This document shows positions 9,731 through 64,000 of a stretch of DNA of 64,000 bases, one piece after another. The notes below the pieces were generated by a model, which had not been told where the DNA came from, did not search any database, and saw only the letters and a list, made by a program, of their open reading frames with translations. Position 1 is the stretch's first letter. Each line of letters begins with the position of its first letter. The DNA is taken from NCBI RefSeq assembly GCF_003073045.1, contig NC_037595.1:17714250-17778249 (forward strand), given 5' to 3'. The DNA is from Pomacea canaliculata (Eukaryota; Mollusca; Gastropoda; Architaenioglossa; Ampullariidae). The position numbers and the translations under genes are program-made.

Positions 9731-9875
9731 AATGCGAGGGCGACGTGCAGTGTACTTGATGATGCCACGGTTGTTTACAGCGTGTATCTGTAGCTGTGCA
9801 AGGGGAGCAATCTAAAATCATTACAATGTTCTCAGACTTTTTACCTCCCCTCGTTGCCTACCTGGCACATCACTG
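9731..9875 (+). pseudogene. Decayed TRIM-C1q exon 1 (RING first half) relic
   Basis: Base-by-base similarity to exon 1 of TRIM-C1q 2 (11141-11284) is visible despite many changes. Shared stretches include GTGCAGTGTAC, the GCGTGTATCTG block matching the second RING cysteine, and CCTCCCCT near the CLPCL codons; the end (CATCACTG then GTG) matches the exon donor. There is no open frame. The preceding 100 bases also resemble the leader of copy 2. No matching exons 2 to 4 follow before the next gene, so this is an isolated remnant of a seventh copy, probably left by a partial tandem duplication. Confidence 0.6.
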
Positions 9876-14100: not shown

Positions 14101-14761
14101 TTTCTTTTACTGTACTTATGTATGATAAAAGATAAAGTTACAACTGTTCACTTTCTAATAATAAAACATTTGAAAAATGCACTCCCATTGGTTTTAAAGA
14201 TGGATATGTAAGATTAAATAAACAAGTTCAAGTCTTGAAATTTTCTATAATTAAAACGTCTAAATATTTCAAGCATTTATGGCCAGTGTAATGATAGTGT
14301 GAAAACTGTTGCTGCTAGTCACGAAGATTAAAACGAAAAAACCTGAGATGATGATAACAATAAAAAGTATAAATAATTTTGCTTTGTCTTTTTCATCTTT
14401 TTTGTCAATACTGCAATATCATATAAATTCTGTTCAGGCCTACAACAATGCGACCGGCATTCTCGTCGCTCCTGTCACAGGAATCTACTTCTTTATGGCC
14501 AGCGCGATGAACACAAAGGAGTCAGGGAATCTTTATCTTGATATTTTAGTAAATAAAACTCACGTTGCTGAGTCGTTGACCACAGACAGCAAGGTGGAGT
14601 GTGGGATGAGCTGTACTGTGCACGTAGTTCAGAGACTAATTCAAGGACAGGAGGTATCATTGTCAGCAGGAACACATTTGCCTTCCTCCTCTGTTTCGAT
14701 GCGATATCTTGAAACGTCCTTTGCTGGCGTTTTAGTGCAACAAGAGTTTGGCGTGGTATAG
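11141..14761 (+). pseudogene. TRIM-C1q 2: broken RING, B-box, coiled-coil, C1q gene
   Basis: Four exons can be placed: 11141-11284 (RING first half, MATCSV start, CSVC, CFHTFC, CLPC), 11846-11968 (RING second half, CPTC), 12940-14040 (B-box and coiled coils) and the C1q remnant about 14438-14761. Splice sites are normal for exons 1 to 3. Exon 3 carries an in-frame TAG at 12958-12960, where TRIM-C1q 5 has GAG, so translation would stop six codons into the exon. The C1q exon has lost about its first 40 codons: the acceptor region is joined directly to GCCTAC, which also puts the join in the wrong phase. The rest of both exons is still open, so decay is recent. Transcripts could at most give a RING-only peptide of about 95 residues. 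Closest paralog is TRIM-C1q 5. Confidence 0.85.
14038..14211 (+). other. Read-through of the exon 3 donor coding a hydrophobic tail (copy 2)
   Basis: Past the donor the frame of exon 3 stays open for about 57 codons and codes a strongly hydrophobic segment (ISFTFVTAILSS then VFLFLLLYLC) followed by IKDK. An AATAAA lies among the last codons of this frame, and a second just after the stop. Because copy 2 has an upstream stop, this tail is relevant only by comparison with copies 3 and 5. Confidence 0.5.
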
Positions 14762-20777: not shown

Positions 20778-23700
20778 ATGGCAACGAGAAATGCTAATGA
20801 TGTTGCTACATCCATTTGCAGCGTTTGTCTGGAGCCGTACAAGGGACGTAATCCTAAGCTTTTGCCCTGTTTTCACACACTTTGCCTCCCCTGTTTGAAA
20901 GACTTGGAACAGCACAGCCTGGTGAGTACAAAATGTCTAATGATATGTACAAACACAAACGTCAGATAAATTAAGATACGACAGTATTGATTAGTCCTTA
21001 GGTGAGAGTGAGACAAGCAAAGTAACTAAAAGTGTCATTAAGGTCAAGGTGACACAAACCTCAAAACTGCAGTATGCTAAATCCATATCAGTTATTTATA
21101 TCCACATTTGACTGTAAAACGCCGGGGTGTGCATGCCTTATCTCACCTAGTCAGGTACTTACTAATGACTGCTCACACCAAATCTCATCGCAACATATGT
21201 TTGGTCTCATGATGCGCTGTAGATAACACGTAATAGGAAGAGGACAGAATGGTTGCCAACACATTTTATTTGAAGGAAAAGGAACTTTCTAAAATTATAT
21301 AATGGGTTATGTAATTCTAAGTAACCACCCCCGTTTAGACATGCACACACAGGAGACATAATAATGTTAGGAGTCACATAGATGCAAAGTACTATGGTGT
21401 GATTGATGTAGAAGCAAAACAGTAAGCTTCAAACTTAGTAAGCAAAAAGAATGCTGAAAATACCGCTAATTCATTAAACGAATTAAACGCTAGACACTGC
21501 TGATTCGAAAACAATTTCAGACAAATGCAGCAGCGTGTAAAGAATAGGATGATTAATAAATTGGGATTTCGGTGAGCGTAAAACTTAAAAAATCTCTTTC
21601 TGCATCTTCCTCCGATTGCTATACTTTTTTTTTCTTTTGCGCTCTTTCTTTTGTAGAGTGTAGAGCCACTGCCACTTATATTTGATGCAGATGTTGTGGT
21701 CTTTTTACCTGAATTTTAAATTCTCTAGTCTATGTTATTTATTTGATTTTATTTTGATAGCAAACTTTTCTGTAGGGATTCTTGAAAAGAATTTATAAAA
21801 TGCCAGTTTTTTAAAGCGTGTAAAGAATTCTTCGGTTAAAAAAGGTTATTGAAACCTTCATACTGAACTTTCACAAATACATTTCCATGGGTCGAAAGAG
21901 TGTTTAAAACAATATTACTACACTTCGCCAGACTAGTAGAATCGTTGAAGAAGTCCACGAATGACGTGTTGGCTGCACATAAACCCAATAAGTGCATCGA
22001 TGAGAGCTTGAGGACCTTTACAATTTATCTAACCCACATCGTTAAGACTCAGACACCTACAGTAGTTGCCAAGCCTCGCACATTCTGAACTCAGGACACT
22101 CACCACACAGTGAGCTGCTGGAACAAAGACAGTTTACTGTCCCCAGGTAAAATCTGAACGTAAGTCTGACCAAGAGCATGGCATGTTGTTATAGGGCTAG
22201 ACTTATTAAGGTCACGTTGATGACTATCAAAGTAGTTATGTAGACATAACAGACAGATCTTATAGTTTGTTTTAGGCTATTAACCTCATGTTCCGCTTGC
22301 AAATAAAAATTCCTAAATTTTGTTTCAGATTCACAAATTTTTTTCTTTGTTAATTTTCTAATTTTCATACTTATCTATTTTCTTGCATTTTAGCAGGCTT
22401 TATCAGACACAAAAGGAAACCAAGATGACGACAGAGACATCCACCTTTGACCTTTCCATGTCCTACGTGTAGAGCAGTTATCACGGTTCCCCCTGGTGGC
22501 GTCATCCAGTTCCAGGTAACAAAATAGTTCCCGACAACATACGACTCCCTCCTTTACTTTAAAAAAGGCCATATAAATGAAAAAAATATCATATGGAACG
22601 TTGATGTTTTCATTTTATTTTTGTACAATCAATCTACAATGGAAGCGCTTTACAAGTGGATCTCTTAACACTTTAGCTCCTTACAGCGTAAAAGTTGCTT
22701 TAAAAAAATGACTGCGCAAAAAAGTAAGCTCTCTCAGTTGAAAACAAAAGAATTAGAAACTACAAATTTTACAACAAAAGAAAAAAATTCTAATTCTTCA
22801 TCTATGATCAATTGTGTGAGGTCAAGAATATTCATGACAATAGTTGGATGTGTTTGATGAAAGGTAATATAAAAGTATATTGTTACTTTAAACAATATGA
22901 TATAAAGATAACTCGTCGTTAGCAATTGTTCACTGGTAATACTGCTTCTGTTTAGTAGATACTGCTTGCAGCTGAAATTATTTTTTTTACTTCTAGATAT
23001 ACATCATAAGAAACATAATACTAATTATTGACAAAAATGTTATAGAGACATGTAGGTCACAGTGTGTGTGCTTGCTTAAGGCATAGTGACGATCGTTGTT
23101 CACTTGCAGAATTAATATCAAAAGTGATGATAAAGATATCCACTTAAAACTACACAGTTTTTATAGATGCTTTATATTATATTTTCCTGATTAACTCTTT
23201 TTTTTCAGACTAATTTCTACTTGAATGATGACACACTCACCTGTCAGATATGCGATCTAGGTAACGAGGCCACGTACAACTGTTCTGAGTGCAGCCAACA
23301 TATGTGCGATCACTGCAAGCGGTACCACAACAAATTTCTTCCAATTCACCAGGTGCAGCCTCTGACCTTTAGTTACCAGCAAACATCTCAAATTAGCTTT
23401 GAGCCTGTAAAGGAGGGTACCATCACACAACAACTCGCGGTGTTGGAGGCGGCGCTGGTGACGATGAGGGAGGAGGAGGACACGCTGCAGAGGGAGAGGA
23501 AGGCGGTGGCTGACGTCATCAGCAGGCGGGCCGACGCCATGAGGGCGCTAGTAACGCAGGCGGAGGAGAAGAGTCAAAGGGCGGTCACTGAAAAAGCCGA
23601 TAATATGAGTAAACAGATACAAAATAAGATGACTACTGCTCGCCAGAAGTACGCCATGATTGTAACACCACAAGTCCTTATTCATGGACATCCCACGTTA

Positions 23701-25150
23701 CTTAGTGATGAGGATTTTGAATATTACCAGCAGCAGAGCCGAAGACGAGAAGTGAAGACTCTACTGCACCAGTTCAACGACTCTGCCATTGACCTACAGG
23801 CCGTAGAAGCCTACATAGGTACGGTGTGTGATGACCAACTGGCCGCAGTGGAGACTAGCTTACCTGTGGCAACTGACGTCAGCCATGGAACCATGACAGA
23901 CATGTCAGACTATAAATCTGCTACGTCACAAACGTCAGACATCACAAAACTTACACGTGACATTTCACACATTGAGGATAAGATAGCAGCACTAGATGCA
24001 CGCACACAAAACTTGGAGAGTCAGAATCAAACCAATGTTTCCTTCTTGAAAGATGAAGACTTCAAGTTACAACAAAATGTTGCAGCTTTTCAGCAAAATA
24101 TGGATGATTGTACAAGAAACATTTCAAATATTCAAAACGACATAGTCAGCATGCGTCAGGTGATTGGAACAATGAAAGTTCCTAACTCTACTTTACAGAA
24201 TGATGTTGATATCATTAAGCAGGAATCTTCGAGCAACAAAATCGAAACCCAAAAAGTGAAAGATGTCGCTAACGACTTGAGTACAGAACTCAAGACTTTT
24301 AAAGGTGAGATAGTGATTATCTCGTTCACATTTGTTACAGCGATTTTGTCTAGCTACGTATTTATATTTTTTTTACTGTACTTATGTATAATACAATACA
24401 AAGTTTCAGCTGTTTACAACCACTTCCTAATAACTAAACAGTTAAAAAAAAAACACTCCAAATGGTTTTAATGAAGGATCTGTAAGATTATTTAGACAAG
24501 TTAAAGTCTTTAGGAACTTTCTTAAATCAAAAGGTCTAGATATCTTTAGCAGTTATGGCCAGTGTAATGGTAGTGTGAAAGCTTCTGCTGCTAGTCACGA
24601 AGATGAAGACGAATAAAACTTAGATGATGCTTGCAATATAATGTCTAAATAATTCTTTTAACTTTTTGTCAATACTGCAATATCATACAAATTCTGATCT
24701 TCAGAAAAATCCAGCATCATGGTGGCAGTTAACGCCAGACTCCAAGAAGGAAAACAACTAAAGGGATTATCGCGATCAGATGTTCTGGTCTTAAGCGACG
24801 TTACCTGCAACGTGGGGCAGGCCTACAACAACAAGACAGGCATCTTCGTCGCTCCTTTCACAGGAATCTACTTCTTCATGGCCAGAGCAATGAGCACCAA
24901 GGGGTCAGAAAGGTTTTCTCTTGATATATTAGTAAATAATACTCGCGTTGCTGACTCATTGTCCACAGACGCCATTTTGAAGTCTGGGATGAGCTGTACT
25001 GTGCACCTAGTTCAGAGACTAATTCAAGGACAGGAGGTGTCAGTGACAGCAGGGACACATTTGCCTTCCTCCTCTGCTTCGTTGAGATCTGGTGAAACGT
25101 CCTTTACGGGAGTGTTAGTGCAACAAGAGTTTGGCGTCGTTTGGTCGTAG
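20778..25150 (+). pseudogene. TRIM-C1q 3: chimeric copy with frameshifted RING exon 2
   Basis: Exons are 20778-20921 (RING first half, ATG in good context), 22394-22515 (RING second half), 23209-24304 (B-box C6H2 and coiled coils) and 24705-25150 (complete C1q, NVGQAYNNKTGIF, GIYFFMARAM). Exon 2 is 122 bases, not the 123 of all other copies: one C is missing at about 22439, which brings a TGA into frame before CPTC. Exons 3 and 4 are fully open. Exon 2 is phase 0 at both ends, so skipping it would join exon 1 to exon 3 in frame, giving about 561 residues with only half a RING. Exons 1, 2 and the B-box resemble copies 4 and 6, while the coiled coil and C1q resemble copies 2 and 5; the switch falls in the GC-rich stretch near 23440-23580. 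Called a pseudogene for the full product, but a shortened protein is possible. Confidence 0.8.
24302..24471 (+). other. Read-through of the exon 3 donor coding a hydrophobic tail (copy 3)
   Basis: The exon 3 frame continues through the GT donor for about 55 codons, with the hydrophobic run ISFTFVTAILSS and VFIFFLLYLC, then a Lys-rich end and a stop at 24469-24471. Used as a terminal exon it would replace the C1q head by a membrane anchor. Confidence 0.5.
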
Positions 25151-27866: not shown

Positions 27867-30800
27867 ATGGCAACGAGATTTCCTACTGATGATGATGCTA
27901 CATCCATTTGCAGCATTTGTCTGGAGCCGTACAAGGGACGTAATCCAAAGCTTTTGCCCTGTTTTCACACACTTTGCCTCCCCTGTTTGAAAGACTTGGA
28001 ACAGCACAGCCTGGTGAGTACAAAATGTATATTGATATGTACAAACACTCACAGCAGATAAATTAAGATACGACCGTACTTTTAACCCCTTAGGCAAGAG
28101 TGAGACAAGCAAAGTACCAAAAAGCTGTTAATAAGGTGGCACATATCTTAAAACTGCAACATGCCAGACACATATAAATTTATTATTTTTTATCCACATT
28201 TGACTGTAAAAGGCCGGGATGTGCATGCCTTATTTCACCTTGTCAGGTACTTACTAATGACAGCTCACACCAAATCTCATTGCAACATGTGTTTGGTCTC
28301 ATGACAAGCTGTAGATAACACGCAATAGGAAGAGGACAGAATGGTTGCCAACACATTTTATTTGAAGGAAGAGGAACATTCTAAAGTTATATAATGGGTT
28401 ATGTTATTCTAAGTAAACACCTCCGGGTAGACATGCATACACAGGGTACATAATAATGTTAGGAGTCACATAGATGCAAAACACTATGGTGTCATTGATG
28501 CAGAAGCAAAACAATAAACTTCAAACTTTAGTAAGCAAGTAGCATAAGAATAAGATGATTGCTAACTTGGGATTTCGGGGACCGCAGGTTTTTCTTTCTC
28601 TTTCTGTCTCTGCCTAACATTACTCTACTTTTTTTTCTTTTGGCCTCTTTCTTTTGTTGAGCGTAAGCTCGAACCAGCACCAGTTATATTTGATGGAGAT
28701 GTTGCGGTCTTTTAACCTAAATTTTAAATTCTCTATGTTATTTCTTTATTTGTTTCTTTCTGAAAGCCACGTTTTCTGTAGGAATTCTTTAAGAAATATT
28801 TTGAGAAAGCCAGTTTTTGAATGCGTACGAAGAACAACATTATCCTAATTCTTAGGTTGAAAAAGGTTATTGAAACCTTCATACTGAACTTTCACGAATG
28901 CATTCCAATGGGTTGAAAGATTGTTTAAAACAATAGTACTACACTTTGCCAGACTAGTAGTATCTATCATAAAGTCCACAAATGACTGCACGTGCGCCCT
29001 ATAAGTACATAGACGAGAGTGTGATGACCTTTACAATCTATGTAACTTACATCGTTAACACTCAGACACCTTCAGTAGTTTCCAAGCTTCTCACATTCCA
29101 ACCACATGACACTCACCACAAAGTGAGCTTCTGGGGCAAAGACAGTTTACTGTCCCCAGGTAAAATCTGACCATATGTCTGAACAAGAGCATGGCATGTT
29201 GTTATAAGGCTAGATATTTACGTCACGTTGGTGACAATCAAAGTAGTTAAGTAGACATAACAGATAGGTCTTACAGTTTGTTTCAGACCATTAATATGAT
29301 GTGATGTTTGCAAATAAAAATTCCTAAATTTTGTTTCAGGTACAGATGAAAATTATTTTTTGTTAATTTTCTAATAGGTCAGGTCAGGTCAGTCCCATGC
29401 CCGGTCCGGGCGTAGGGGGGACCGTCCGGCAGCAGCAACAGACAGAATTTTCCAAATTTTCCAAATTTTCCAGAATTTTCTAATAATCATACTCTATTTT
29501 CTGGTATATTAGCAGGCTTTGTCAGACACAAAAGGCAGTCAAGATGACGACAGAGACCATCCACCTTTGACCTTTCCATGTCCTACGTGTAGAGCAGTTA
29601 TCACTGTTCCCCCTGGTGGCGTCATCCAGTTCCAGATTACAAAATAGTTCACGAAAACATACGACTCCCTCCTTTACTTCAAAAACGTTCATATAAATGA
29701 AAAAGTATCATATGCCATCATGGAACCTTGATATTTTCGTTTATTTTGTACAATTCATGTACAAAGAAAAGGCGTTAAAAGTGGTTCTCTTAACACTTTA
29801 GCTCCTTACAGCGTTAAAAGTGCTTAAAATATAACTTTACAATAAAAGTAAACTCTATAAGTTGAAAACGAAAGAATAAGGAACTAGACCTTTAGAACAA
29901 AAGAAAAATTATAAATCTTTATCAATGATCTTGCGTGCACAGTCAAGCAGGATTCATGACAATAGGTGGATGTGTTTGACGAAAGGTAATATAAAAGGAT
30001 ATCGTTGCTGCAAACAATATGGTATAAAGATACCTCTGTCGTTAGCCAATGTTTATTGATAACATTGCTTCTGCTAGTAGATACTGCTTAAAGCTAGAAT
30101 TGTTTTTTATTCTTTTTTCAGACTAATTTCGATTTGAACGATGACACACTCACCTGTCAGATATGCCCCCAAGGTAACGAGGCCACATATAACTGTTCTG
30201 AGTGCAGCCAAAATATGTGCGACCAGTGCCAGCAATGTCATAACAAATTTCTCCCCAGCCACCAGGTGCAACCTCTGACCTATAGCCAGCAAACATCTCA
30301 AATGAACTTTCTACCAGTGAAGAAAGATACCATCACGCAACAACTCAAGGTGCTGGAGGCGGCGCTGGTGACGATGAGGGAGAAGGAGGACACGCTGGAG
30401 CGGGAGAGGCAGGCGGTGGCTTACGTCATCACCAGGCGGGCTGACGCCGCGAGGGCGCTAGTGACGCAGGCGGAGGAGAGGAGCCAGAGAGAGCTGACGG
30501 AAGTAGCTGAAAGGCTTAGAATACAGATACAAGAAGAGATGGTAGCTACTCGCAAAATCTACAGTAAAATATTTACATTGATATCACTAGAACGGGATAC
30601 TGGTCAAGCGAATCCAATCAGCAGAAAGATGCAGACGGTTCTACTCAGTGATGAAAATTTACAGTTGTATCAAGATCGATGCAACAGGGGCAGACAATCG
30701 AAGATAATTCTGCACCAGTACAACGACGACGCCATTGACCTGAAGATCGTAGGAGACTACATAGGTACGGTGTGTGATGGTAAACAACCTGCAGGGAAGA

Positions 30801-32161
30801 CCAGCAATGTGCAGGTGTCAGAGCTGTCAGACACAACAAAACTATCATGTGATATTGGAGAAAGGGAGGGGATGTTGACACATGATACACCTTCACCCTA
30901 CTTAGAGAGATACAATAGTGCGATGATGGAACTGGGTATTCTCAAGGGAGAGATCTCTAATCTTCAGAAGGATGTGACCATTTTAAAAGAAAAGGACCCC
31001 ATGGTTGAGCAAAAATTGAGAAGTTTTGAAGAAAAGTTGGAGAACGTTCAAGAAGACCTTTCAAGAACAGAAAAGGTAACGACCTCTATAACGCAAGAGA
31101 CGGAAACAGTAAAGACCGTCAACTGTAAACTGCAGAATGTCATCGACAATATGCAGAAGGAGTATTCAATTATGAAAACAGAAACAGATAAATCCAAACA
31201 AAATATTAAAGACCTGAAGAGACACCTTAAAAGTTTTGAAGGTAAACAGTACACATTTTTTCACTAAGGTGTAGCAATCTCCGTCCGCATTAAAGAAAAC
31301 ATAGTTAACATGCACGCGTAAAAATAAAGAAACGCATTTCAATTTTTCGAAGTACCTTCGTAACAAGAAAATCTAGCCTATTTGTAAAAAATAGATTTAT
31401 GTGAATGTGTTTTTTTGTGTGTGTGTGTGTGTGTGTGTGGGCATGCTTCGGGGTGTATACGTGCTCTATAACGTTACAGTTTACATACTAGGTACATAAG
31501 TTATTGATGATGATGATGATGATTGCTGGGATCGTAGTAATAATGATAATTACGACAACGATAACTAACGACAATCATGCTAATGCTGATCACAATGATA
31601 ATGATGATGAGAGTAAAAATTAGTTGTGACAATAATGACGATGATGATGATAATGTTGATGATAGCTTTTAATAGGTATGAAAAGAATATTGCATGATCA
31701 TCATATGTGTGTGTGTGTGGGGTGGGTTCTTTTTTTTTAAAGAAAAATCCAGTTTCATGGTGGCATTTGACGTCAGACTCAGTGTTGATAAAAAGGTTGA
31801 TGAGGGCTTCACCGATATCGTCATGAGGAATGTGAAGTGCAACGTGGGGGAGGCGTACGACAAGAGCACAGGTATTTTCACTGCTCCTGTAACAGGTATC
31901 TACTTCTTTATGGCGAGAACAGTGAAAGTTAAAACATCAGACCTCTCGCTTGATATACGTGTGGATTGGCATATAGTTGCGGAATCATGTGCTAGTAGTG
32001 CGCCGAAAGCCGGTGGGAGCTGTATTGTACACCTTGTAAAGAAACTGAGAAAAGGACGCAATGTGTCACTGTTATCGTTTACATTCTCACAGGCTACATT
32101 GCGAAGTAGTGAAACGTCCTTTTCTGGCGTGCTAGTGCAACCAGAGCTTGACATTGAATAG
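27867..32161 (+). CDS. TRIM-C1q 4: RING, B-box, coiled-coil, C1q with lost exon 2 donor
   Basis: Exons are 27867-28013 (49 codons, CSIC, CFHTLC, CLPC), 29513-29635 (RING second half, CPTC), 30122-31241 (B-box CQIC, CSEC, CDQC, then coiled coils; phase 1 donor GTAAAC) and 31743-32161 (complete C1q, NVGEAYDKSTGIF, GIYFFMARTV). All are open and together would give 602 residues. After exon 2, where copies 3 and 6 have CAGGTA, this copy has CAGATT, so the GT donor is gone. Reading on adds three codons and a stop (TAG 29645-29647), giving a RING-only protein; skipping exon 2 keeps frame and gives about 561 residues with half a RING. Intron 1 carries the 98-bp insertion at 29376-29473. Coiled coils and 3' flank match copy 6. 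Together with the convergent receptor at 37 kb it forms a unit duplicated as copy 6 plus the 57 kb receptor. Coding status is uncertain. Confidence 0.8.
29365..29484. mobile_element. Short GC-rich insertion with 11-bp target duplication
   Basis: About 98 bp (29376-29473) lie between two copies of AATTTTCTAAT (29365-29375 and 29474-29484). The same site in TRIM-C1q 3 and 6 has one copy and no insert. The insert starts with three GGTCA units, has a GC-rich core (CCCGGTCCGGGCGTAGG) and ends in an AATTTTCC-type repeat. Size and target duplication fit a SINE-like or truncated retroposed element; the 3' repeat resembles the target, so the exact right edge is uncertain. Confidence 0.6.
31407..31437. 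repeat. (TG)n microsatellite
   Basis: An uninterrupted GT run in intron 3 of TRIM-C1q 4, followed at 31506-31523 and 31638-31652 by GAT triplet runs. The same order (GT then GAT) occurs in intron 3 of copy 6 near 52455-52540. Confidence 0.85.
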
Positions 32162-38203: not shown

Positions 38204-38236
38204 AATAAATAAAATTTGTGAACACAGAAGAAACAA

Positions 38237-40445: not shown

Positions 40446-43400
40446 ATGGCAACATGCAGTGTATCTGATGACTCTACGTCCGTTTGCAGCGTGTGTCTTG
40501 AGCCATACAAGGAACGGAATCCCAAAATATTGCCATGTTTTCACACATTTTGCCTTGCCTGCTTAAAAGATTTGGAGATCCATCACTTGGTGAGTAATTA
40601 TAATTCAATCCCACCAAACAACTTATTACGCAAAATTGCTATGTATAAATTTATACAGATTATAGTTTATGCCTTCTTTCTCTCCATTTAATTTTCTTCT
40701 TCTGTCAATGTTTCAAAATTTCATTGCCGGATCAAGTTATGCTGAAAAGACAATTATATGCAGACACATCGGGTTTATGAATTTCCAAAAGTAGTTGGAT
40801 TTGATTTCAGAGTCCAAATGAAAATAAAGTAAACTTATATATAAAATATTAATAACTGAATTTGTACGGCTCTTGTTCATGTATAAATGTTTGCTCAATT
40901 CACCACACACAAAGGATTGCAAAACAAAGCTACAGTCAAATACATGTATACAAGTAACATGTAGACAAAATAAAACCCTAGAAATAAAAGGCTCTACATA
41001 CTTTGTAATTTCATTATCTATTCAACTCTAAAAAATTTGCTGACCAAGGTACAAATAATTTATCACTTTAATATATAATCACAATCCTAATGCCTCAAAG
41101 TTCCATTCTTTATTGACATCAACAAATGAAAAGACCCATATTAGATGAGCTCAGTTTGTTATTACTTAGGATGGTAACCTAGAAAAATTAAGAGAATATG
41201 TATATGTGTGTGGAGGAGGGGAGGTTTACATATATTTATAAGCAAATATGAGTATATGAATGTGGGTGGGGGTAGTATATCTATAAACAAATATGTGCAT
41301 GTGGGGAGATTTACATATATAAGCGGATATGTGTGTTGGGGGTATTAAATATAAGTAGATATGAGTGTTTGGGGTATTAAATATATATATAAGTAGATAT
41401 AAGTGTGTGTGGTGGTGGTGGGGGAGTACACATGTGCATAAGGAGGGTGGATTATATATATATATGCAGATATGAGTGAGTTGGTGTGTGTGTAGAGGGA
41501 TTATATATATATGCAGATATGAGGCTGTGTGTGTGGTGGTGGTGGTGGGTACACATGTATACATAAGCAGATAAAAGTGTGCATGAGGGGGGAATTATAG
41601 ATGCAAATATGAGTGAGTTATTTTATATATATATATATGCAGATACATGTGTGTGTGTATATGGGATTATATATATAGGCAGATATGAGTATGTATGTGT
41701 GTCAGGGATATTAGATGTATATATAAGCAGGTATTTGTGTGGGGTTTACATATAATTATATATATAAGCAGATATGAGACTGTGTGTAGGGGGATTATTT
41801 ATATATACATATACACATATGAGTGAGTAGGTGTGTGTGTGTCAGGGGTATTAGATAAATATCTATGTGCAGATATGAGTATGTATGTTAGGGAGATTAT
41901 ATATATCTAAAATAAGATGATTGCATGTGCATGGGGGGTTACATATATGGATCGGGTGGTATATAAGCAGATATAAGGCAGTGTGAGTGTGTGGGTAGGG
42001 GTTAAACATGCATACATAAGCAGATGTGGGTGTGAGGGGGAGATTATATATATATATGCAGATATGAGTAAGTGTGTGTGTTGGAGGGGATGTTTATATA
42101 TATATATATGTGTGTGCATATGGCGTGTGTCTATATATAAGCATCAATGAGTATGTGTGTAAGGGGAGGATTTTATATATATAGATATAAGTAAGAATGT
42201 ACGTGTATATATCTCTGTTTAGGTAAGAATGAAAGAGAGGGGCAGAAACATCCCCTCCAAAATTTTTTGCTCGTTTACATGTGTTTATATACTTTGATTT
42301 ATTTGATTACACATGCAGTGATGTGATTTGCATTAAAGGGCTAGAAGAAGAACAATTAAGTAAGTGAGGCAAAAAAAATCAGCTTTTAATGTGTTGACTG
42401 TTACAAACTAACCAGTGAATGTGTGTGTGTGTAAGTGTGAGCAAGGGAGATTGCATATAAGATATACAGTAATGCATGTGAATATATTTATATTTTGAAT
42501 ATCTCAATACCCTTAAGGATGAAAAAATATTCATGGATCATAACCTTCAGGAACTGATGACACTCTGCAAAACATGAACTAAGTGCATGGATGAAGAAGT
42601 AAGGAATGAACCAAGCAGTGCTACGTTGCACAAAATATTTCTTCCAGAATTCTTAAAGTAAAATGTTATAAAATCAAATCCCCACAAATACAAGCACTTG
42701 TTAAAGTGCTAAATGCTCTGTTTGTCTGTCCATGATAGGAACAGTTTGAACACTATTGCCCTTGTTAGTTATAAGATGACTGGTGTCAAACAGGAATCTG
42801 GGTTTTTGTTGCAATTAGTAAATTGCCAGGAAATTGGCATTTACTCAATATATGAACATGTCACTGTAGGAGAACTTGTTTTATTAAATTCAGGCAAACC
42901 TTATGCTATTCCAAAAGTGAAGAAGAAATAAATTTATATGTATCTACACACACAAAATTATTTACTTTATCATTTCAACTTCTGAATAGTAAATGAAAGG
43001 TGTGGGTGCAAAGGGTATGGTCCTAGATGTAGGGAACTAGGACTTTTTTTTTTATCAAGCTATGCATTCTTTTACAATGTACCACTTTTTTGTAACTGAG
43101 CACTTGCTTTGTAACTTAGAAGACTCAAAATTAACCTCTGGTATTAATAATGCTTGTCATTTGTCACTGACATTATATTTTGTGTGTTTGAATCACTATA
43201 TTCAGTGAATGTATTTAGCAGTTTTCAACAAATACTACAATGTTGCCCTCTCTAAATGCCACTCTGTGTGTTTAGCATGTGTGTAGAAACTTTGTAAATG
43301 AACTCCTTGTAGGGAGGAGCTAGATGTGTGTGTATGCACTAAAATAGTCACTTGCTTTCAATCATTAAATATTGCGTCCTCTGGGTTATCAGTGTAATAA

Positions 43401-46400
43401 TGTAACAAATTTAATACAACTTTTGACTGAACATAGTCTATATTTGTAAATATTTACATTTCAAGGCTCATTATTCGTCTTTGCACTCAGGGTACTTCTA
43501 TGTGACAATTCTTTATTTCCCTATTTTCTTTGTCTCTCATGCCGCTAGTAATCACGCAAACACGTACACCAAGGTGAGAGATCGCTGCCTCACACTCTGA
43601 GTTACTTGCACCTCGACTACCATGTAGGATCAAATACCTAACACTGAGACAATGACTTGCTAATTAAATAGGTGAGACCTCGATCGGAGACGACAGTTCG
43701 ATGTAAGGAAAGAACAAGGTGACGATAGGAAGTAGTTAGCCTCCTTCACATCCACTAACACGCCAACGGGTGTCCCCGCAGCCAGTCCCGGAGAGCTAGT
43801 TGAGGGCGACTAGCGCTTCGTGCATGCGGAATCCGGATACACCATAAGCGGGTGTAGGACTCGACTAGCACTCCGGGAGTAGCAGGTAAACGGAGTTGTC
43901 CTCATTCGATTTACATGCATACGGGGACAGGTAGGTGTCTTAAGGCTAAAACATTATGAGCCATGTAAAGTCGACACACTTTATATATAAAAGTTTTCTC
44001 AGCTACACTGACTTTCTTTTGCTTGTTGTCTGAAGTTTAGGAGCAGATTTGAAGTTGCTGTGATGTTGAGTACAAACATATGACAAAGTGTAAAGTAAAT
44101 GGTTAACAATATTTATGGTGCTTTGTTTGTCTTTCGATCAACTTACTTATTTACAAAGAAATGTTCCTTTTTCTGCTTTTTATTAGCTATAATAAAGTCG
44201 TTTATCAGCAGGCTTTAGAAGACAGAAATGTCTGTGGGGATGACGAGGTGCAAATGAGATCATTGACCTTTCCCTGTCCAACGTGCAGAGCAGAGATCAC
44301 AGTGCCACCTGGTGGAGTCACTCAGTTTCAGGTCAGAAATAACCGCCGATTTATCACTGCGGGCAAAAACCACCATACAGATCTACCTATGTGCTTACAA
44401 AGATTATTTACTAACAAGTTTACTAATTACATTCTAATTTATATATATATACACTTCTACTTGCTTTATAAGTTCAAAATTTTACGCCTTCCAGTCTCTC
44501 ATTTTTGCATTGAAGGGCGTTGAAGAGTATGGAATCTACAACATTATAACAAGAAAAAAAATGAGTCTCATCCACCATTTTGTAAATCGAAGGTAGCAGT
44601 GTATCAAACACACTTTTTAAATATTTTGATTTTGACTATTTCGAAATACAAAACAAGTATATTAGTTGGTATTGAGAACAGCTTTGAAATATATGTAAAA
44701 TTCATTTAGATGTTTATTAGGACGAGTTGCTCTGTTATCGTGCGTAAAAATTTGTTTTCAGTCCAATTTCTACTTGACGGAGAAAACACTCAAATGTGAG
44801 GTATGCAAGCGAGACGAAGAAGCTACGCACAGCTGTACTGACTGTGGTCACAACATGTGCACCCAGTGCCAAAAGTACCATGATGTATTTACCTCAAATC
44901 ATCATTTACAGCAGTTAGTCAGTAGTAACAAGCAACATTCTCAAAATATTCACAATACAGACTTTGAGGAGAAACGTGCTGACCAGCTCAAGGTGCTGGA
45001 GGCGGCGCTGGTGACGATGAGCGAGGAGGAAGATATGTTGCAGCGGGAGAAGCAGGCGGTGGCTGACGTCATCACCAGGCGGGCCGACGCCATGAGGGCG
45101 CTAGTGACGCAGGCGGAGGAGAAAAGTCAAAGGGCAATCTCTGAAAAAGCCGATAATTTGGGTAAACAGATACAAAATAAGATGACTACTGCTCGCCAGA
45201 AGCACGCCATGATTGTAACACAAGTCCTTAGTGATGGACAGCCCACGTTACTTAGTGATGAGGATTTTGAATATTACCAGCAGCAGAGGCGAAGAGGACA
45301 ACAAGTGAAGACTCTACTGCACCAGTTCAACGACTCTGCCATTGACCTGCAGGCCGTAGAAGCCTACATAGGTACGGTGTGTGATGACCAACTGAGTGTA
45401 GTGGAGACTAGCTTACCTGTGGCAACTGACGTCAGCAGTGGAACCATGACAGACATGTCAGACTATAAACCTGCTACGTCACAGCCGTCAGACATAACAA
45501 AACTGACACGTGACATTTCAGACATTGAGGACAAGCTGGCAGCACTAGATGCCCGCACACAAATCTTGGAGAGTCAGAATCAAACCAATGTTTCCTTCTT
45601 GAAAGATGAAGACTTCAAGTTACAACAAAATGTTGCAGCTTGTCAGCAAAATATGGATGATTGTACAAGAAACATTTCAAATATTCAAAAAGACATAGCC
45701 AGCATGAGCCAGGAGTTTGAAACAATGAAAGTTTCTAACTCTACTTTACAGAATGATGTTGATATCATTAAGAAGGAATCTTCGAGAAATAAAATGAAAA
45801 CCCAAAAAGTGAAAGATGTCGCTAAAGAATTGAGTACAGAAATCGAGACTTTTAAAGGTGAGATAGTTAACGTTATTATCTCGTTCACATTTGTTACAAC
45901 GATTTTGTCTAGCTTCGTATTTCTATTTCTTTTACTGTACTTATGTATGATAAAAGACAAAATTACAGCTGTTTAAACCTACTTTCTAATAATAAAACAG
46001 TTGGGAAAAAAAACACTCCCTATGGTTTTAAAGAAGGATCTATAAGATTAGTTAGACAAGTTCAAGGATCTTTAGGAACTTTCTTAAAACAAATGTCTAG
46101 ATATTTTTAGCAGCTATGGGTAGTGTAATCAGTGTGAAGGCACTTGCTGCTAGTGACGAATATTAAGGCGAAGAAACCTTAGATGATTCTAACAATAAAA
46201 TAGTCTAAATAATTCTTTTTAACTTTTTGTCAATACTGTAATAGCATACAAATTCTCATCTTCAGAAAAATCCAGCATCATGGTGGCATTTAATGCCAGA
46301 CTCGATGAAGAAAAACATCTAAGGTATATATTGCAATCAGATATTCTGGTCTTAAGCGACGTTACCTGCAACGTGGGGCAGGCCTACAACAAGGACACTG

Positions 46401-46705
46401 GCATTTTTGTCGCTCCTGTCACAGGAATCTACTTCTTCATGGCCAGAGCGACGAACACCAAGGGGTCAGAGACGTTTTATCTTGATATTTTAGTAAATAA
46501 AACTCGCGTTGCTCGGTCGTTGTCCACAGGCGGCATGGGGGAGTCTAGGATGAGCTGTACTGCGCACGTAGTTCAGAGACTACTTCAAGGACAGGAGGTG
46601 TCAGTAAAAGCAGGGACACATTTGCCTTCCTCCTCTGCTTCGTTGCGATGTTTTGAAACGTCCTTTACTGGCATGTTAGTGCAACGAGAGTTTGGCGTCC
46701 AGTAG
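40446..46705 (+). CDS. TRIM-C1q 5: intact RING, B-box, coiled-coil, C1q protein
   Basis: Exons 40446-40589, 44209-44331, 44762-45857 and 46266-46705 join in frame to 600 residues. The RING is C3HC4: C14, C17, C31, H33, C36, C39 from exon 1 and C71, C74 from exon 2. The B-box at 101-136 has C6H2 spacing (CEVC, CTDC, CTQC, His129, His136). Coiled coils follow from about 150 to 450, and a C1q head from about 455 to 600 (NVGQAYNKDTGIF, GIYFFMARAT, ETSFTGMLV). No signal peptide precedes the RING, so the protein should be cytosolic, unlike normal C1q proteins. By family the RING would act as an E3 ubiquitin ligase, the coiled coil would dimerise, and C1q would take the ligand-binding place held by SPRY or NHL in known TRIMs; ligand unknown. 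Intron 1 is 3.6 kb against 0.56 kb in copy 2 because of the insertion with a minisatellite. The ATG has a G at +4. Alternative 3' end: see 45855-45996. Confidence 0.88.
41190..42240. repeat. AT/GT-rich minisatellite in intron 1 of TRIM-C1q 5
   Basis: About 1 kb of imperfect units of roughly 50-70 bp built from TATATATA, GCAGATATGAG, GTGTGTG and a G run. Unit ends and lengths vary. Copy 2 has no such array at the same intron position, so it arose after the two copies separated. Confidence 0.85.
42300..43940. other. Rest of the large insertion in intron 1 of TRIM-C1q 5
   Basis: Unmatched by intron 1 of copy 2. An open frame at 42713-42931 (72 codons, ending PKVKKK with AATAAA overlapping the stop) resembles the tail of a retrocopied gene, but I do not recognise it. 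From about 43540 to 43930 the sequence is GC-rich and contains an 18-bp inverted pair (43787-43804 with 43860-43877, 16 of 18 matching) that could form a hairpin. Homology with copy 2 resumes at CTTAAGGCTAAAACAT near 43939. Confidence 0.4.
45855..45996 (+). other. Alternative 3' end with membrane-spanning tail and poly(A) signal (copy 5)
   Basis: If the exon 3 donor at 45858 is not used, the frame continues 38 codons (ISFTFVTTILSS, then VFLFLLLYLC and IKDK) to a TAA at 45974-45976, with AATAAA at 45991-45996. This would make a 493-residue RING, B-box, coiled-coil protein ending in a membrane helix and lacking C1q. Relative to copies 2 and 3 there is a 6-base insertion here that keeps the frame. 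Whether transcripts end here is unknown. Confidence 0.5.
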
Positions 46706-48669
46706 TCGTAGACATTGCATCATCATCATCATCGTCGTCGTCGTCATCGTCTCTCATTATCATAATCAAAACAACAAAAACAGCTACGAACTTTACACTT
46801 TTCCTAACATAATTGGCGTTGTGTTTTTGACTGGTTACCAACATGTGGCCTTTTTATTTGTTCTTTTTTTCTAATATGAACTCTCTTTTTGATTTTTCAA
46901 CCATAATGCCTAATAATAATTTAAAGCCCCATATTTACATGTAACATGGCAGTGATGTTTCGTCTATCTTCATCTACCTTTACTTGCTATAGTAGTTAGA
47001 CGTTATCTTTGACTTTTTACACAGCAACAGATTGTGTAACTGAAGGCAAGTAAATATTGAAATATTGGAGTTTATGAGGACTTACAAATCTCCTTTCTGA
47101 TAAAATATCTCAAATTTAAATATTGTTTTTTTTCTGAAAATAGCACGAAAAAGATACAGGTATTTTCGATGATAAAAATATCATACATTTTTAATTGCAA
47201 TTATTTTTTTAAAGTAAAACAAACACTCGAAAACATTTTTGCATTTTTTCTAAAAAAATATAGCGTTTCCAAAACATTCATTATTTAAAATAAAATAATG
47301 AACAGAAAAGTAGTTTAACTTTCAAAATCAATTATTAGTTGATAAAATATTCTAAATAAATACATCACAAATAAAAGGTTATAAAACAAATTGCAGATCT
47401 CTTTTGAAAAAAAAGCAACAGCAAAGAAATAGCAAGCAGCACACACACATACACGCACAGAAACATACCATCAGTTCCTTTCGATTATTTGCACGAAGCG
47501 CTCTCAGCTGTTGCGTAATAAGGGATGAGGGCAAAGGCGGTTTCGTTGTTGACAGTTGTGTAGCTTTTGTATAAAAAGGAAAATATAAAAAAATATTACA
47601 TTCGACGACACAACCTGCAATACATTTTTGCTTTTATAAATACGATTATTTTCACCACCCTCCCTTGCTAGTCAACGTGCATGTGTGTGTGTGTGCGCAT
47701 GCGCGTGCGTGTAAGATGACCTTGTTGTTGACGTGAGAGTCTACACATTGTTGACAACTAGGTCACAGAGGTGAGTACAAATGTTCTTGAACGACATTCA
47801 CTCGCGTGTAAGATACAGGTAGGTGCACAATGACAAGCTAGGCAATGTTCGACTGAAGCGTAAATCGCAAAGAATGTTGTTTATTTACGCCTGTTAACGT
47901 ACGTACTGATGTGTGAAAAAAGCAATGGTTATTGCAATAGATAAACTAACAAATGAAGAGAAAAATCCAAAGCTAGGCCTAAAGATACATTAAAATGTGT
48001 TGTAAATACTGATGAAATTCGACGACAACAGAACCATTATTGTAGCTTGATTCTTTTACAAAGAGATCCTTTTTATGCATTTGTACAAGCTTTAGACAGA
48101 TGTTCAATAATGTTAATCGTAGAAACTTCGTATTTGTTGAATTTGTTCTGAATTATGTCATCCTAAGCGCACACAAGTGGACCGTGTCAACTGTTGCTTC
48201 TATACGTGTTCTCCCCTAACGAAAGGTACCAAACCAGGGACGAGTAACTCAATGGCTGACATTAAAATACGATATGTTATTATTATACGCATATTGTACA
48301 ATACACAGACACCATGCAACGTAGTACATCACTACATACACGTCCACAATGTTTAAAGACCATGAAAGGTAAAAATGACAATGTATATTAAAACTGTAAC
48401 TTTCACGTGTACGAACACCGACATAAACGCTTGCGCGAACACACACTGTAAACTTAATCTCTCTCCCACACATTCGCCTACATAATTACACACATTCGCA
48501 AACGCGCACACATATGCACGGGTACACAAACAAACCAACTTGCAGATAACATGAGTCACAGTGTGCATCACACTCGGCGCAGTTTGTGATGTCTTGACAG
48601 TGATTAGGGACAAGTAAGGTCTGAATTTCTGGGAATTATTTTGTACTTTCGTTTCCTAAAATTCTTGTT
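46706..48669. other. Spacer between TRIM-C1q 5 and 6
   Basis: Begins with an ATC/GTC triplet run after the C1q stop. About 46890-47560 matches 26490-27200, and about 47580-48560 matches the flank upstream of copy 3 on both sides of the solo LTR, which gives the empty-site sequence for that insertion near 48405-48425. No gene is supported. Confidence 0.55.
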
Positions 48670-48965
48670 CTAAAAATAAAGCGCTGTTACTGACAACACA
48701 CCAGATCAATCCCGTCAACCGCTGCGTGCTGTCAACAACGCCACGGAACTACGTACATGTCAGGAGCTTTATTTAACAGTCACCTGATTTGACAGGAAGA
48801 AAAAAACTCGCCTGTAATCAGACAAGCACTCTTGCTCCGACAAGTTTCGAGATAAGACAAGAGGTCAGGTGACGTGGACGTGGCTGGAGATAACCGTCGG
48901 CCGCCATTTTGGAAAGACTGTCGTGTACTTTGTGCGTCTTACCTTCACTGATACACACAACGACG
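48670..48965 (+). promoter_or_regulatory. Conserved 5' flank of TRIM-C1q 6
   Basis: Counterpart of 20500-20777 and 27567-27866, with the same AATCAATCCCGTCA and ACAGTCACCTGATTT blocks before the ATG. Confidence 0.45.
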
Positions 48966-51900
48966 ATGGCAACGAGAAGTGATGCTGATGATGCTACATC
49001 CATTTGCAGCATTTGTCTGGAGCCGTACAAGGGACGTAATCCTAAGCTTTTGCCCTGTTTTCACACACTTTGCCTCCCCTGTTTGAAAGACTTGGAACAG
49101 CACAGCCTGGTGAGTACAAAACGTCTAATGATATGTACAAACACGCGAGGAAGATAAATTAATATACGACCGTATTGATAATCCCTTAGATAAGAGTGAG
49201 ACAAGCAAAGTACCTTAAAGCTGTCTTAATAAGGTCAAGGTGCCACATAACTCCACACGGCAACAAGCTACATACATAACGATCTATTATTTATACCCAC
49301 ACTCGCCTGTAAAGGCCAGGGTGTGTTTGCTTCATCTCACCTTGTCAGGTACTTACTAATGACAGCTCACAATAAATTTCATTGCAACATGTGTTTAGTT
49401 TCATGACGCGATGTACATAATACTCAATAGGAAGAGGAAAAGAATGGCTACCAACACATCTTATTTGAAGGAAGAGGAACATTTTAAATAAAATAATGGG
49501 TTCTGCAAATTATTAGTAAACACATGTGGGTAGACATGCATACACAGGATACATAATAATGTTAGGAGTCATATAGCTTCAAAACAGCCCTTCGTGATTC
49601 ACGTAGAAGCAAAAAACTAATTTTCAAACTTAGTAAACAAATAGCATACCAAAGATACAGCTAATTTAGTAAACAAATTAAATGCTAAAACACTCCTAAT
49701 TTTGAAACAATTTCAGACTAATGCAGCAGCGTCTGAAGAATATGATGATTAATAACTTGGGATTTTAGGGATTGCAGAATTTAACAAATCTTTTCTGCCT
49801 TTTCCTCCCATTGCTATACTTTTTTTTTTCTTTTGGCCTCTTTCTTTTGTAGAGCATACCTTCGAACCACCACTAGTTATATTTGATGGAGATGTTGTGG
49901 TCTTTTTATCTGAATTTTAAATTCTCTATGTTATTTCTTTATTTATTTCTTTTTTGATAGCAAAGTTTTCTGTAGGAAGTCTTTAAAACTAAATTTTAAG
50001 AAAGCCAGTTTTTGGGAGCGTGTGAAGAACAACATTATCCTAATTCTTAGGTTAAAAAAGGTTATTTAAGCATTCATAGTGAACTTTCACGAATACATAT
50101 CATGTGTTGAAAGATTGTTTAAAGCAATATTACTAAACTTTGCCACACTAGTAGAATTGATCAAGAAGTCCACAAATGACGTGTTGGCTGCATATGCGCC
50201 TTATAAGTGCACCGATGAGAGTGTGAGGGCCTTTACAGCCTAACCTACATCCTTAACACTCAGACACCTACAATAGTACCCAAGCCTCGCACATTCTGAC
50301 CACAGGACACTCACCACACAGTGAACTGCTTAGGTAAAGACAGTTTACTGTCCCCAGGTAAACTCTGACAATGTCAGAGCAATGGCATGGCATGTTATTA
50401 TAAGGCTAGATTTATTTAGGTCGCGTTGATAACTATCAAAGTAGTTGTGTAGACATAACAGATAGAACTTCCAGTTTTTTTCAGGCCATTAACACCATGT
50501 TGTGTTTGCAAATAAAAATTCTTAAATTTTGTTCAGGTACAGAAAAATATTATTTGTTCATTTTCTAATTATCATACTTCTCTATTTTCTGGCATATTAG
50601 CAAGCTTTATCCGACAGAAAAGGAAGTCAAGATGACGACAGAGACAATCCACCTTTGACCTTTCCATGTCCTACGTGTAGAGCAGTTATCACTGTTCCCC
50701 CTGGTGGCGTCATCCAGTTCCAGGTAGCAAAATAGTTCCCCAAAGCATATAAATTCCTCCTTTATTTAAAAAAAGCCCATGTAAATTAAAAAATATCATA
50801 TGTTATCTTGGAACTTGAATATTTCTTATTATTGTCTAAAATCCATGTACAAAGGAAACGCTTTAAAGGTGGTTTTCTTAACACTTTAGCTCCTTACAGC
50901 TTTTTTAAAATTTCTACATATACCTTATAAGAAACTTAATACTAATGATTGGAAAAAGTGTTTTAGAGACATATATGTCACAGTGTGTGTGTGTTCTTGC
51001 TTAAGACATAGTGACGACCATTGTTTACATACAGAATTTACATCAAAAGTGACAGCAAACATATCCACTTAAAATTACTCATTAATTATAGATACCTTAC
51101 ATTGCATTATCCTGTTTAACTTTTTTTTCAGACTAATTTCTATTTGAACGATGACACACTCACCTGTCAGATATGCGATCTAGGTAACGAGGCCACGTAC
51201 AACTGTTCTGAGTGCAGCCAAAATATGTGCGATCACTGCAAGCGGTACCACAACAAATTTCTTCCCAGTCACAAGGTTGAACCTCTGACCTTTAGTTGCA
51301 AGGATACATCTCAAATTAGCTTTGAGCCTGAAAAGGAGGGTACAATCACACAACAACTCGCGGTGTTGGAGGCGGCGCTGGTGACGATGAGGGAGGAGGA
51401 GGGCACGCTGGAGCGGGAGAGGCAGGCGGTGGCTGACGTCATCAGCAGGCGGGCTAACGCTGCGAGGGCGCTAGTGACGCAGGCAGAGGAGAGAAGCCAG
51501 AAGGAACTGTCGGAAGTAGCTGAAAGGCTTAGAATACAGATACAAGAAGAGATGGTAGCTACTCACAATATTCACGGTAAAATATTTACATTGATGTCGC
51601 AGGAACGCGGTACGGGTCAAGCAAATCCAATCAGCAGAAAGGTGCAGACGGTTCTTCTCAGTGATGAAAATTTACGGTTGGTTCAAGAGCGATGCAGCAG
51701 TGGCCGACAATCGAAGTTAATTCAGTACCAGTACAACGACGTCGCCATTGACATGAAGATCGTAGGAGACTACATAGGTACGGTGTGTGATGGTAAACAA
51801 CCTGCAGGGGAGACCAGCAACGTGCAGGTGTCAGAGTCCGTCTGTGCAGAGTTACAGTCTTCAGAGCGGCAATGGAAGACTATGGCTGTTACACCGAAGC

Positions 51901-53120
51901 TGTCAGACACAACAAAACTATCATGTGATATTGGAGAAAGCGAGGACATGTTGACACATGATACACCTTCACACTACTTAGAGAGATACAATAGTGCGAT
52001 GACAGAATTGCGTATTCTCAAGGAAGAGATCTCTAATCTTAAGATGGATGTGAGCATTTTAAAAGAAACGGACTCCATGGCTGAAAAAAAAATGAGAAAT
52101 TTTGAAGAAAAGTTGGAGAACGTTAAAGAAGAGCTTTCAAGAACGGAAAAGGTAACGACCTCTATAAAGCAAGAGACGGAAACAGTAAAGACCGTCAACT
52201 ATAAACTGCAAAATGCCATTGACAATATGAAGCTGGAGTATTCAATTATTAAAAGAGAAACGAATAAAGCCAAAGAAAACATTAACGATCTGGAGATAGA
52301 CCTTGAAAGTTTTAAAGGTAAACAGTACACTTTTGTTTACTGAATGTGTATTTAACATGTAAGCGTAAAAAAAAATGCATTTCAATTTTTCTTAGTATCT
52401 TAGTAATAAGAAATTCTCGCCTATTTTTTGTAAAAAAAAAAAAAGCTTTATGTGAATGTGTGTGCGTGTGTGTACAATTGCTCTATAACGTGACCGTTTA
52501 CATGCTTGGTACAAAAGTTAATGATGATGATGATGATGGTTGTTGCGATCGTAGTAATAATAATAATTGTGACGACGATAATTAACGACGATCATGCTAA
52601 TGCTGATTACGATGAGAATGTTGATGATAGCTTTTAATAAATACGAAAAGAGTATTGCATGATCATATATATATATATTTGTCTGTGTATTTTTAAAGAA
52701 AAATCCAGTTCCATGGTGGCATTTGACGCCAGACTCCATGTTGATATAACAGTTGACGAAGATGAAACTGATATCTTCCTGAGAGACGTGAATTGCAACG
52801 TGGGGGAAGCGTACAACAAGAACACAGGTATTTTCATCGCTCCTGTAACAGGTATCTACTTCTTTATGGCGAGAACAGTGAAAGTTAAAACACCAGACTT
52901 CTCGCTTGATATACAAGTGGATGGAAATCGAGTTGCTGAATCATTATGGGAAAGTAGTCCGCGGAAAGCCAATGGGAGCTGTGTTGTACACCTTGTACAA
53001 AAACTGAGTCAAGGACAAGAGGTCACACTGTCAACGTATACATCGTCAGAGGCCACATTGCGAAGGAGGGAAACGTCCTTTTCTGGCATGTTAGTGCGAC
53101 CAGAGCTTGACATTGAATAG
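48966..53120 (+). CDS. TRIM-C1q 6: intact RING, B-box, coiled-coil, C1q protein
   Basis: Exons 48966-49109, 50601-50723, 51132-52317 and 52699-53120 join in frame to 624 residues with standard GT and AG at every junction. RING C3HC4 ligands are C14, C17, C31, H33, C36, C39 and, from exon 2, CPTC. The B-box at 101-136 reads CQIC, CSEC, CDHC and two His. A long coiled coil follows, about 30 residues longer than in copy 4 near the middle, and then a C1q head (NVGEAYNKNTGIF, GIYFFMARTV, ETSFSGMLV). There is no signal peptide or membrane segment; past the exon 3 donor the frame ends after seven codons (GKQYTFVY), so the membrane-tail option of copies 2, 3 and 5 is absent. It is the best complete member of its subfamily. 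Convergent to the receptor at 57 kb. Ubiquitin-ligase and ligand-sensing roles are inferred from the domains. Confidence 0.88.
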
Positions 53121-58108: not shown

Positions 58109-58144
58109 TTGAATACAAGATTTGAACACAATAGGACAAAGCAT

Positions 58145-63696: not shown

Positions 63697-64000
63697 TGGA
63701 ATACAATAGTTAAACTCATTTTTAGAAAGCGTTTAAAAGAAGAATGTTTCTGTTAAAGTAAAATTGTCATAGTCGTTGTAGATTACGTCTGTTTGAGACT
63801 TTATATTAAATAGAAGTCGATAAGCTTCGTCTGTAATATGCAATATTTGAACTAAAAGATAAAATACAAAATCTCACTTTCGGAAACTATATCAATGTAA
63901 TTCTGAAAGTTGTAGAGGTAAGCAACATGTAGCCTATTAAGGAAAAAAACAATGCCTTTTTGAACTGCAACAAATATTTAAAACTTTTTTTGCTTGTCCT
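63697..64000. other. 5' flank of receptor 6, runs off the window
   Basis: AT-rich, resembles the first 250 bases upstream of receptor 5 (TTTATATTAA blocks). No gene seen. Confidence 0.5.

Follow-up and report, generated by a model that had tools for sequence, protein, structure and literature searches.

The locus and its two intact genes

The window analysed here is a stretch of 64,000 nucleotides from Pomacea canaliculata (RefSeq assembly GCF_003073045.1, contig NC_037595.1, positions 17,714,250 to 17,778,249 of the forward strand). It contains a tandem array of genes; the products predicted from its intact copies have a TRIM-like order of RING, B-box and coiled coils and end in a C1q domain. 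Six C1q exons or remnants are present in the window, with starts at 3511, 14426, 24705, 31743, 46266 and 52699. A preliminary description had proposed that copies 5 and 6 join four exons in frame, with phases 0, 0 and 1, and the NCBI gene models agree with it letter for letter. The spliced copy 5 product has 599 residues and is identical to P0001 (‘myosin-16-like isoform X2’, Pomacea canaliculata), while that of copy 6 has 624 residues and is identical to P0012 (‘myosin-13-like isoform X1’, Pomacea canaliculata). The exons of the two genes are:

40446..40589, plus strand: copy 5 exon 1, 144 nucleotides, start codon and RING zinc ligands 1-6, donor GTGAGT
44212..44331, plus strand: copy 5 exon 2, 120 nucleotides, final RING ligands (CPTCR) and linker GGVTQFQ, acceptor AG, donor GTCAGA
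44762..45857, plus strand: copy 5 exon 3, B-box (type-1 pattern), coiled coil 1 and coiled coil 2
46266..46705, plus strand: copy 5 exon 4, C1q domain and stop, Pfam C1q E 2.5e-12
48966..49109, plus strand: copy 6 exon 1, 144 nucleotides, first part of the RING, donor GTGAGT
50601..50723, plus strand: copy 6 exon 2, 123 nucleotides, end of the RING and linker, acceptor AG, donor GTAGCA
51132..52317, plus strand: copy 6 exon 3, B-box and coiled coils
52699..53120, plus strand: copy 6 exon 4, C1q domain and stop, Pfam C1q E 1e-12

A comparison of copy 5's longest coding exon with 5.8 billion proteins gave as best match a 599-residue Pomacea canaliculata protein. All 15 matches listed are from the same species, and their genes probably lie on one chromosome.

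Domains of the encoded proteins

The N-terminal C3HC4 RING of the preliminary description is recognised both by Pfam (E 4.8e-7 in copy 5 and 1.3e-7 in copy 6) and by its zinc ligands, and RING and C1q both pass the Pfam cut-offs. The Pfam zf-RING_UBOX domain is above cut-off in all five scanned Pomacea proteins that carry RING exons, and a loose zinc-ligand pattern is found in 15 of 15 scanned proteins, Patella TRIM2 among them. The best profile matches of the RING among solved structures are TRIM2 and TRIM56 chains, and the linker that comes after it is TRIM-like. The arginine directly after the last RING cysteine, a position with a role in E3 ligase activity, is invariant, which is consistent with such activity.

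The eight zinc ligands of the B-box are invariant in the seven aligned Pomacea proteins. In copies 5 and 6 this ligand pattern upholds the B-box assignment made earlier, even though the Pfam domain is below cut-off in copy 6 and unlisted in copy 5. By their zinc-ligand patterns, all eight Pomacea RING proteins match the type-1 B-box, in which the second ligand is a cysteine, and only that type; the Pomacea B-box aligns with B-box 1 of Babylonia. In the portion of one TRIM classification covered here, a lone B-box is always of type 2 (PMC2533329), a rule from which the Pomacea proteins depart. In the abstract of another, what marks a TRIM is a RING with one or two B-boxes after it, and this rule for a lone box does not appear there (PMC3503706).

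After the B-box, a predicted helix at residues 154-246 has a hydrophobic spacing of 3.6-3.67 residues and would form coiled coil 1, at the place where TRIM proteins carry theirs. The hydrophobic spacing of the second long helix is 3.5 residues.

The C-terminal domain belongs to the C1q family both by profile and by its predicted fold, a beta-sandwich. In the structure model, which is a monomer, the solved folds predicted to be closest to this head are the Caprin-2 C1q domains, tied with C1QL proteins; the fold-comparison table is dominated by the C1q part (residues 455-597), and the RING, B-box and helices are barely covered there. The profile search also matches C1QL3 and cerebellin-1, among others, and several of the solved C1q entries matched have ‘trimer’ in their titles. 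Polyubiquitin rows in this search involve only 32 profile positions and repeat units, and were taken as chance.

State of the array

The preliminary description had extended the splice sites and phases of copies 5 and 6 to every copy. This extension fails, as lesions are present in copies 2, 3 and 4 and copy 1 is without a RING exon in the window, while the architecture seen in copies 5 and 6 is borne out. The remaining elements of the array are:

1727..2915, plus strand: copy 1 exon 3, B-box and coiled coils
3511..3917, plus strand: copy 1 exon 4, C1q
9737..9856, plus strand: decayed relic of RING exon 1, start codon and frame gone, tblastn E 2.3e-6
11141..11284, plus strand: copy 2 exon 1, first part of the RING, frame open
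11849..11968, plus strand: copy 2 exon 2, last part of the RING, frame open
12940..14038, plus strand: copy 2 exon 3, stop at codon 7
14426..14764, plus strand: copy 2 C1q-exon remnant, start lost; NCBI model P0002 lists no C1q
20778..20921, plus strand: copy 3 exon 1, first part of the RING
22394..22515, plus strand: copy 3 exon 2, 122 nucleotides, frame lost
23209..24304, plus strand: copy 3 exon 3, recombinant, start copy-6-like and rest copy-5-like
24705..25150, plus strand: copy 3 exon 4, C1q, copy-5-like
27867..28013, plus strand: copy 4 exon 1, first part of the RING
29513..29635, plus strand: copy 4 exon 2, splice donor AT, not GT
30122..31241, plus strand: copy 4 exon 3
31743..32161, plus strand: copy 4 exon 4, C1q

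All five copies that have RING exons in the window keep a GT donor at exon 1. Four of these five keep GT at the exon-2 donor (copy 4 being the exception), and four keep the frame of exon 2 (copy 3 being the exception). Exon 3 has its acceptor AG and its donor GT in all six copies, and the C1q exon has its acceptor AG in five, the start of this exon being unalignable in copy 2. In the 1.7 kb of the window that lie 5′ of copy 1 exon 3, no plus-strand match to a RING exon was found. Assembly errors could account for the lesions in copies 3 and 4, which are small. NCBI models P0008, P0002, P0003 and P0014 appear, by reading, to correspond to copies 1, 2, 3 and 4, respectively; when they are cut into 12-residue words, the window contains 478 of 500, 348 of 358, 460 of 471 and 459 of 470. 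P0015, a Pomacea protein that by reading lies outside the window, has no RING listed, a B-box above the Pfam cut-off and a C1q domain; it is perhaps a RING-less member or a poor gene model.

A crossover has produced copy 3, in which the ligase half resembles copy 6 and the reader half copy 5. In 90-nucleotide segments along the aligned exon 3, the first four have identities of 0.88-0.98 to copy 6 and 0.52-0.69 to copy 5. At 240 nucleotides the two are nearly equal (0.92 to copy 6, 0.90 to copy 5), and the 14 later segments have identities of 0.90-0.99 to copy 5 and 0.34-0.77 to copy 6. The switch point is the conserved start of coiled coil 1. In trees, the N-terminal half of copy 3 groups with copies 6 and 4 (100/98) and its C1q domain with copy 5 (95/97). 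To judge from its sequence, copy 3 shows that exchange between the halves occurs, and since its RING exon is broken, the mosaic may not yield a working ligase. Together with the lesions, this crossover copy supports the earlier view of a tandem and changing array. Expansion of the array within the Pomacea lineage is weakly supported, as the grouping of the Pomacea C1q domains in the C1q tree has a support of just 84/75.

Between copies 5 and 6, the ratio of nonsynonymous to synonymous substitution rates (dN/dS) is 0.13 for exon 1 (synonymous rate, dS, 1.25), 0.55 for exon 3 and 0.39 for the C1q exon. Mean column entropy over 12 Pomacea rows is 0.86 bits in the RING, 0.91 in helix 1 and 0.98 in the B-box, against 1.43 in the C1q domain and 1.44 in helix 2. 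Several of these rows are without a RING, and a column was counted if it held at least five letters. Inside the C1q domain the loops have 1.59 bits versus 1.30 in the strands, and some predicted strands (470-472 and 564-571) are as variable as loops. In two recent pairs the C1q dN/dS is near 1 (0.96 for copies 3 and 5, 0.82 for copies 4 and 6).

Signal peptide and cellular location

As had been proposed, the proteins have no recognisable signal peptide. Over 11-residue stretches of the first 40 residues, hydropathy peaks at 0.48-1.85 in all of the 14 relatives, by a hydropathy test and not a dedicated predictor, and by this measure all 14 differ from secreted C1q-domain proteins. In five of five copies an in-frame stop lies within 240 nucleotides 5′ of the start codon, with no methionine between; a spliced upstream exon was not searched for. 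The start methionine next to the RING is kept in all eight aligned proteins from four species. A candidate upstream signal peptide in copy 5 was rejected: the open frame is hydrophobic but has no methionine, and the run is not kept in copy 2, its nearest relative. The missing signal peptide and the conserved start beside the RING suggest an intracellular location. Ubiquitin ligase activity and an immune role are likewise inferred; of the earlier interpretation, the TRIM-like C1q architecture and the changing array are supported, while location, ligase and immune function keep this conditional status.

If exon 3 of copies 2, 3 and 5 is read through into the intron that follows (after 14038, 24304 and 45857), the added stretch is strongly hydrophobic. 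A membrane-anchored isoform made by read-through of the exon-3 donor was considered and set aside, as no clear coding constraint is seen. The ratio of nonsynonymous to synonymous differences per site (pN/pS), counted in frame and over few changes overall, is 1.98 and 0.58, with one pair having no synonymous change, and the stretch was taken as T-rich intron.

Relatives in other snails

A first profile, built from seven Pomacea proteins, gave 21 matches and a wider profile 29, each search scoring the 8000 candidates that share most words, with words from the first 500 residues. Outside Pomacea, RING and C1q occur together in P0016 (Littorina saxatilis), P0017 (Batillaria attramentaria) and P0018 (Babylonia areolata). 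The architecture is therefore present in the models of four lineages, Architaenioglossa, Littorinimorpha, Cerithioidea and Neogastropoda, all of them Caenogastropoda. Among the 8000 scored candidates the wider profile found no further species with both domains, which says nothing on absence in bivalves or other animals. Because the Littorina, Batillaria and Babylonia models also hold RING and C1q, an annotation accident is unlikely; together with the exact NCBI models in Pomacea, they sustain the proposal of a TRIM-like architecture ending in C1q.

Other members differ in detail. In Babylonia, P0018-P0020 match both the type-1 and the type-2 B-box patterns. P0019-P0021 have RING and B-box with no C1q listed; the ends of P0019 and P0021 resemble, by eye, the start of a C1q domain, and are probably gene-model errors. 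P0018-P0021 have long inserts between RING ligands 6 and 7, acidic in at least three of them. RING and B-box are also present in Nucella P0023 and Patella P0022, with C1q not listed.

Neighbouring features

Chemoreceptor-like genes sit among and beside the TRIM-C1q copies, and other features lie between and within these copies:

90-901: chemoreceptor-like frame that looks broken or split, a repeat of 5695-6858, 5′ of copy 1 exon 3
5695-6858, plus strand: 7-transmembrane chemoreceptor-like gene, Pfam Srw and/or 7tm_1
18431-20010, minus strand: retroelement remnant between copies 2 and 3, RNase H below the Pfam cut-off in two of three scanned frames
37211-38299, minus strand: 7-transmembrane chemoreceptor-like gene, Pfam Srw and/or 7tm_1
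41160-42310: repetitive-looking stretch in copy 5 intron 1, repeating motifs in minus-strand frames
57075-58216: chemoreceptor-like frame that looks broken or split, by eye
62641-63732, minus strand: 7-transmembrane chemoreceptor-like gene, Pfam Srw and/or 7tm_1

The retroelement remnant may have helped duplication.

Interpretation of the architecture

These genes probably encode a TRIM-type single-chain ubiquitin ligase with a C-terminal C1q reader, present in caenogastropods and tandemly multiplied in Pomacea. As a predicted architecture, the combination of TRIM with C1q is well supported. A number of observations weigh against this assignment. Intact RING-to-C1q genes are found in only two of the six copies (5 and 6). 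The NCBI models of copies 1-4 (P0008, P0002, P0003 and P0014) begin at a methionine within the B-box exon and are without a RING, and P0010 (isoform X4 of LOC112565772, a gene outside the window) likewise starts inside this exon and is RING-less. Pomacea models P0005 and P0006 stop short of the final C1q strand. The RING has very low confidence in the structure model. The Pfam B-box is above cut-off in one of six Pomacea proteins (P0015), below it in four (copy 6 included) and unlisted in one (copy 5), while the B-box of Littorina P0016 is degenerate by eye and that of Batillaria P0017 absent, with no pattern match in either. The heptad residues of the second coiled coil do not tell a dimer from a trimer. 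Positive selection on the C1q domain is not claimed, the high-ratio pairs including the RING-broken copies 3 and 4.

In the main reading, the first helix would form the antiparallel TRIM dimer, while the second would be a stalk that gathers the C1q heads as trimers, replacing collagen, with the protein acting in the cytosol. By engaging several C1q heads, a repetitive ligand would bring the molecules together and pair their RINGs, which would switch on the transfer of ubiquitin onto the ligand or the ligase itself. Since coiled coil 2 and C1q change faster than the RING and the halves can cross over, recognition could be renewed with the output kept. More tentatively, it is possible that snails use C1q, a recognition domain that normally heads extracellular, complement-type proteins, as the cytosolic sensor of such a ligase. 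It would be a collagen-free receptor on a coiled-coil stalk, marking microbes inside the cell, or products of these, with ubiquitin, and its ligase and sensor halves would be reshuffled by crossover where the conserved part of the coiled coil begins.

The C1q domain might instead be an assembly module that trimerises the ligase, with substrates picked elsewhere, for example by the coiled coils. This is the strongest of the alternatives, though still somewhat unlikely. Caprin-2, whose C1q is among the closest solved folds, is cytoplasmic, the titles of several solved C1q entries name a trimer, the second coiled coil and the C1q head are equally variable and strands 470-472 and 564-571 vary like loops. 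The greater entropy of the C1q loops than of the strands, however, fits a changing surface, which is no proof of ligand binding. Slightly less probable is that the ligase serves some purpose other than immunity, for example in gametes, embryos or neurons, and that the array turns over by neutral birth and death. Three of the six window copies are damaged, a fourth is without a RING exon in the window and the C1q dN/dS between the intact copies is 0.39, all of which such a role would accommodate; against it, loop-biased C1q variation and a tandem array resemble immune families, in resemblance only, and a Pomacea-lineage origin of the Pomacea copies is weakly supported.

RING-less products are possible because of the model starts within the B-box exon, and the RING exons of copies 3 and 4 are damaged. 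That the key products are B-box/coiled-coil/C1q proteins from internal starts, acting as decoys or scaffolds, is nevertheless quite improbable, as the first RING exon has the low dN/dS of 0.13 and the RING is kept across four snail lineages. Fusion by annotation of a neighbouring RING gene with a C1q gene, to which evidence from gene models alone is open, is hardly credible, since one model holds both domains in each of four species, the phases match and a single exon runs from the B-box to the coiled-coil stalk and ends at the C1q junction.

TRIM ligases rely on a limited range of C-terminal readers to sense invaders. If C1q is indeed the reader here, another animal lineage would have reached the TRIM5/TRIM21 strategy using an unrelated domain, C1q recognition would be placed inside the cell and there would be a natural route to new pairings of sensor and ligase. 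Database names that mask the family (‘myosin-16-like’, ‘early endosome antigen 1-like’) would be corrected as well.

Comparison with known systems

The genes themselves are known in public databases, under unrelated names, and the architecture appears to be undescribed within the literature covered: no description of RING, B-box and C1q together was found among the matches listed in open-licence literature, with subscription papers and supplements outside this scope. Expansion of C1q genes in Ampullariidae, with tandem clusters, is described in the part covered of PMC13336756, in whose text the word ‘ubiquitin’ is absent. ‘C1q’ is absent from the main text of the TRIM classification papers PMC2533329 and PMC3503706, and where the covered part of the former sets out the C-terminal domains of human TRIMs, C1q does not occur.

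Like the snail proteins, TRIM/RBCC ligases have a RING at the N terminus, a B-box, a long coiled coil and a separate C-terminal domain. The Pomacea members differ in their C1q C terminus, their lone type-1 B-box and a second, heptad coiled coil before the C1q domain. The likeness proposed here to antiviral TRIM5-alpha and TRIM21 is that multivalent engagement of the reader clusters the ligase and that the reader evolves faster than the RING; in the snails, the reader is C1q instead of PRY-SPRY, and ligand and activity are only proposed. The C1q fold is common to the snail proteins, the secreted C1q-domain proteins of molluscs and the cerebellin/C1QL proteins. These secreted, cerebellin and C1QL proteins carry signal peptides, some with collagen, whereas the snail proteins have an N-terminal RING and no signal peptide was seen in them.
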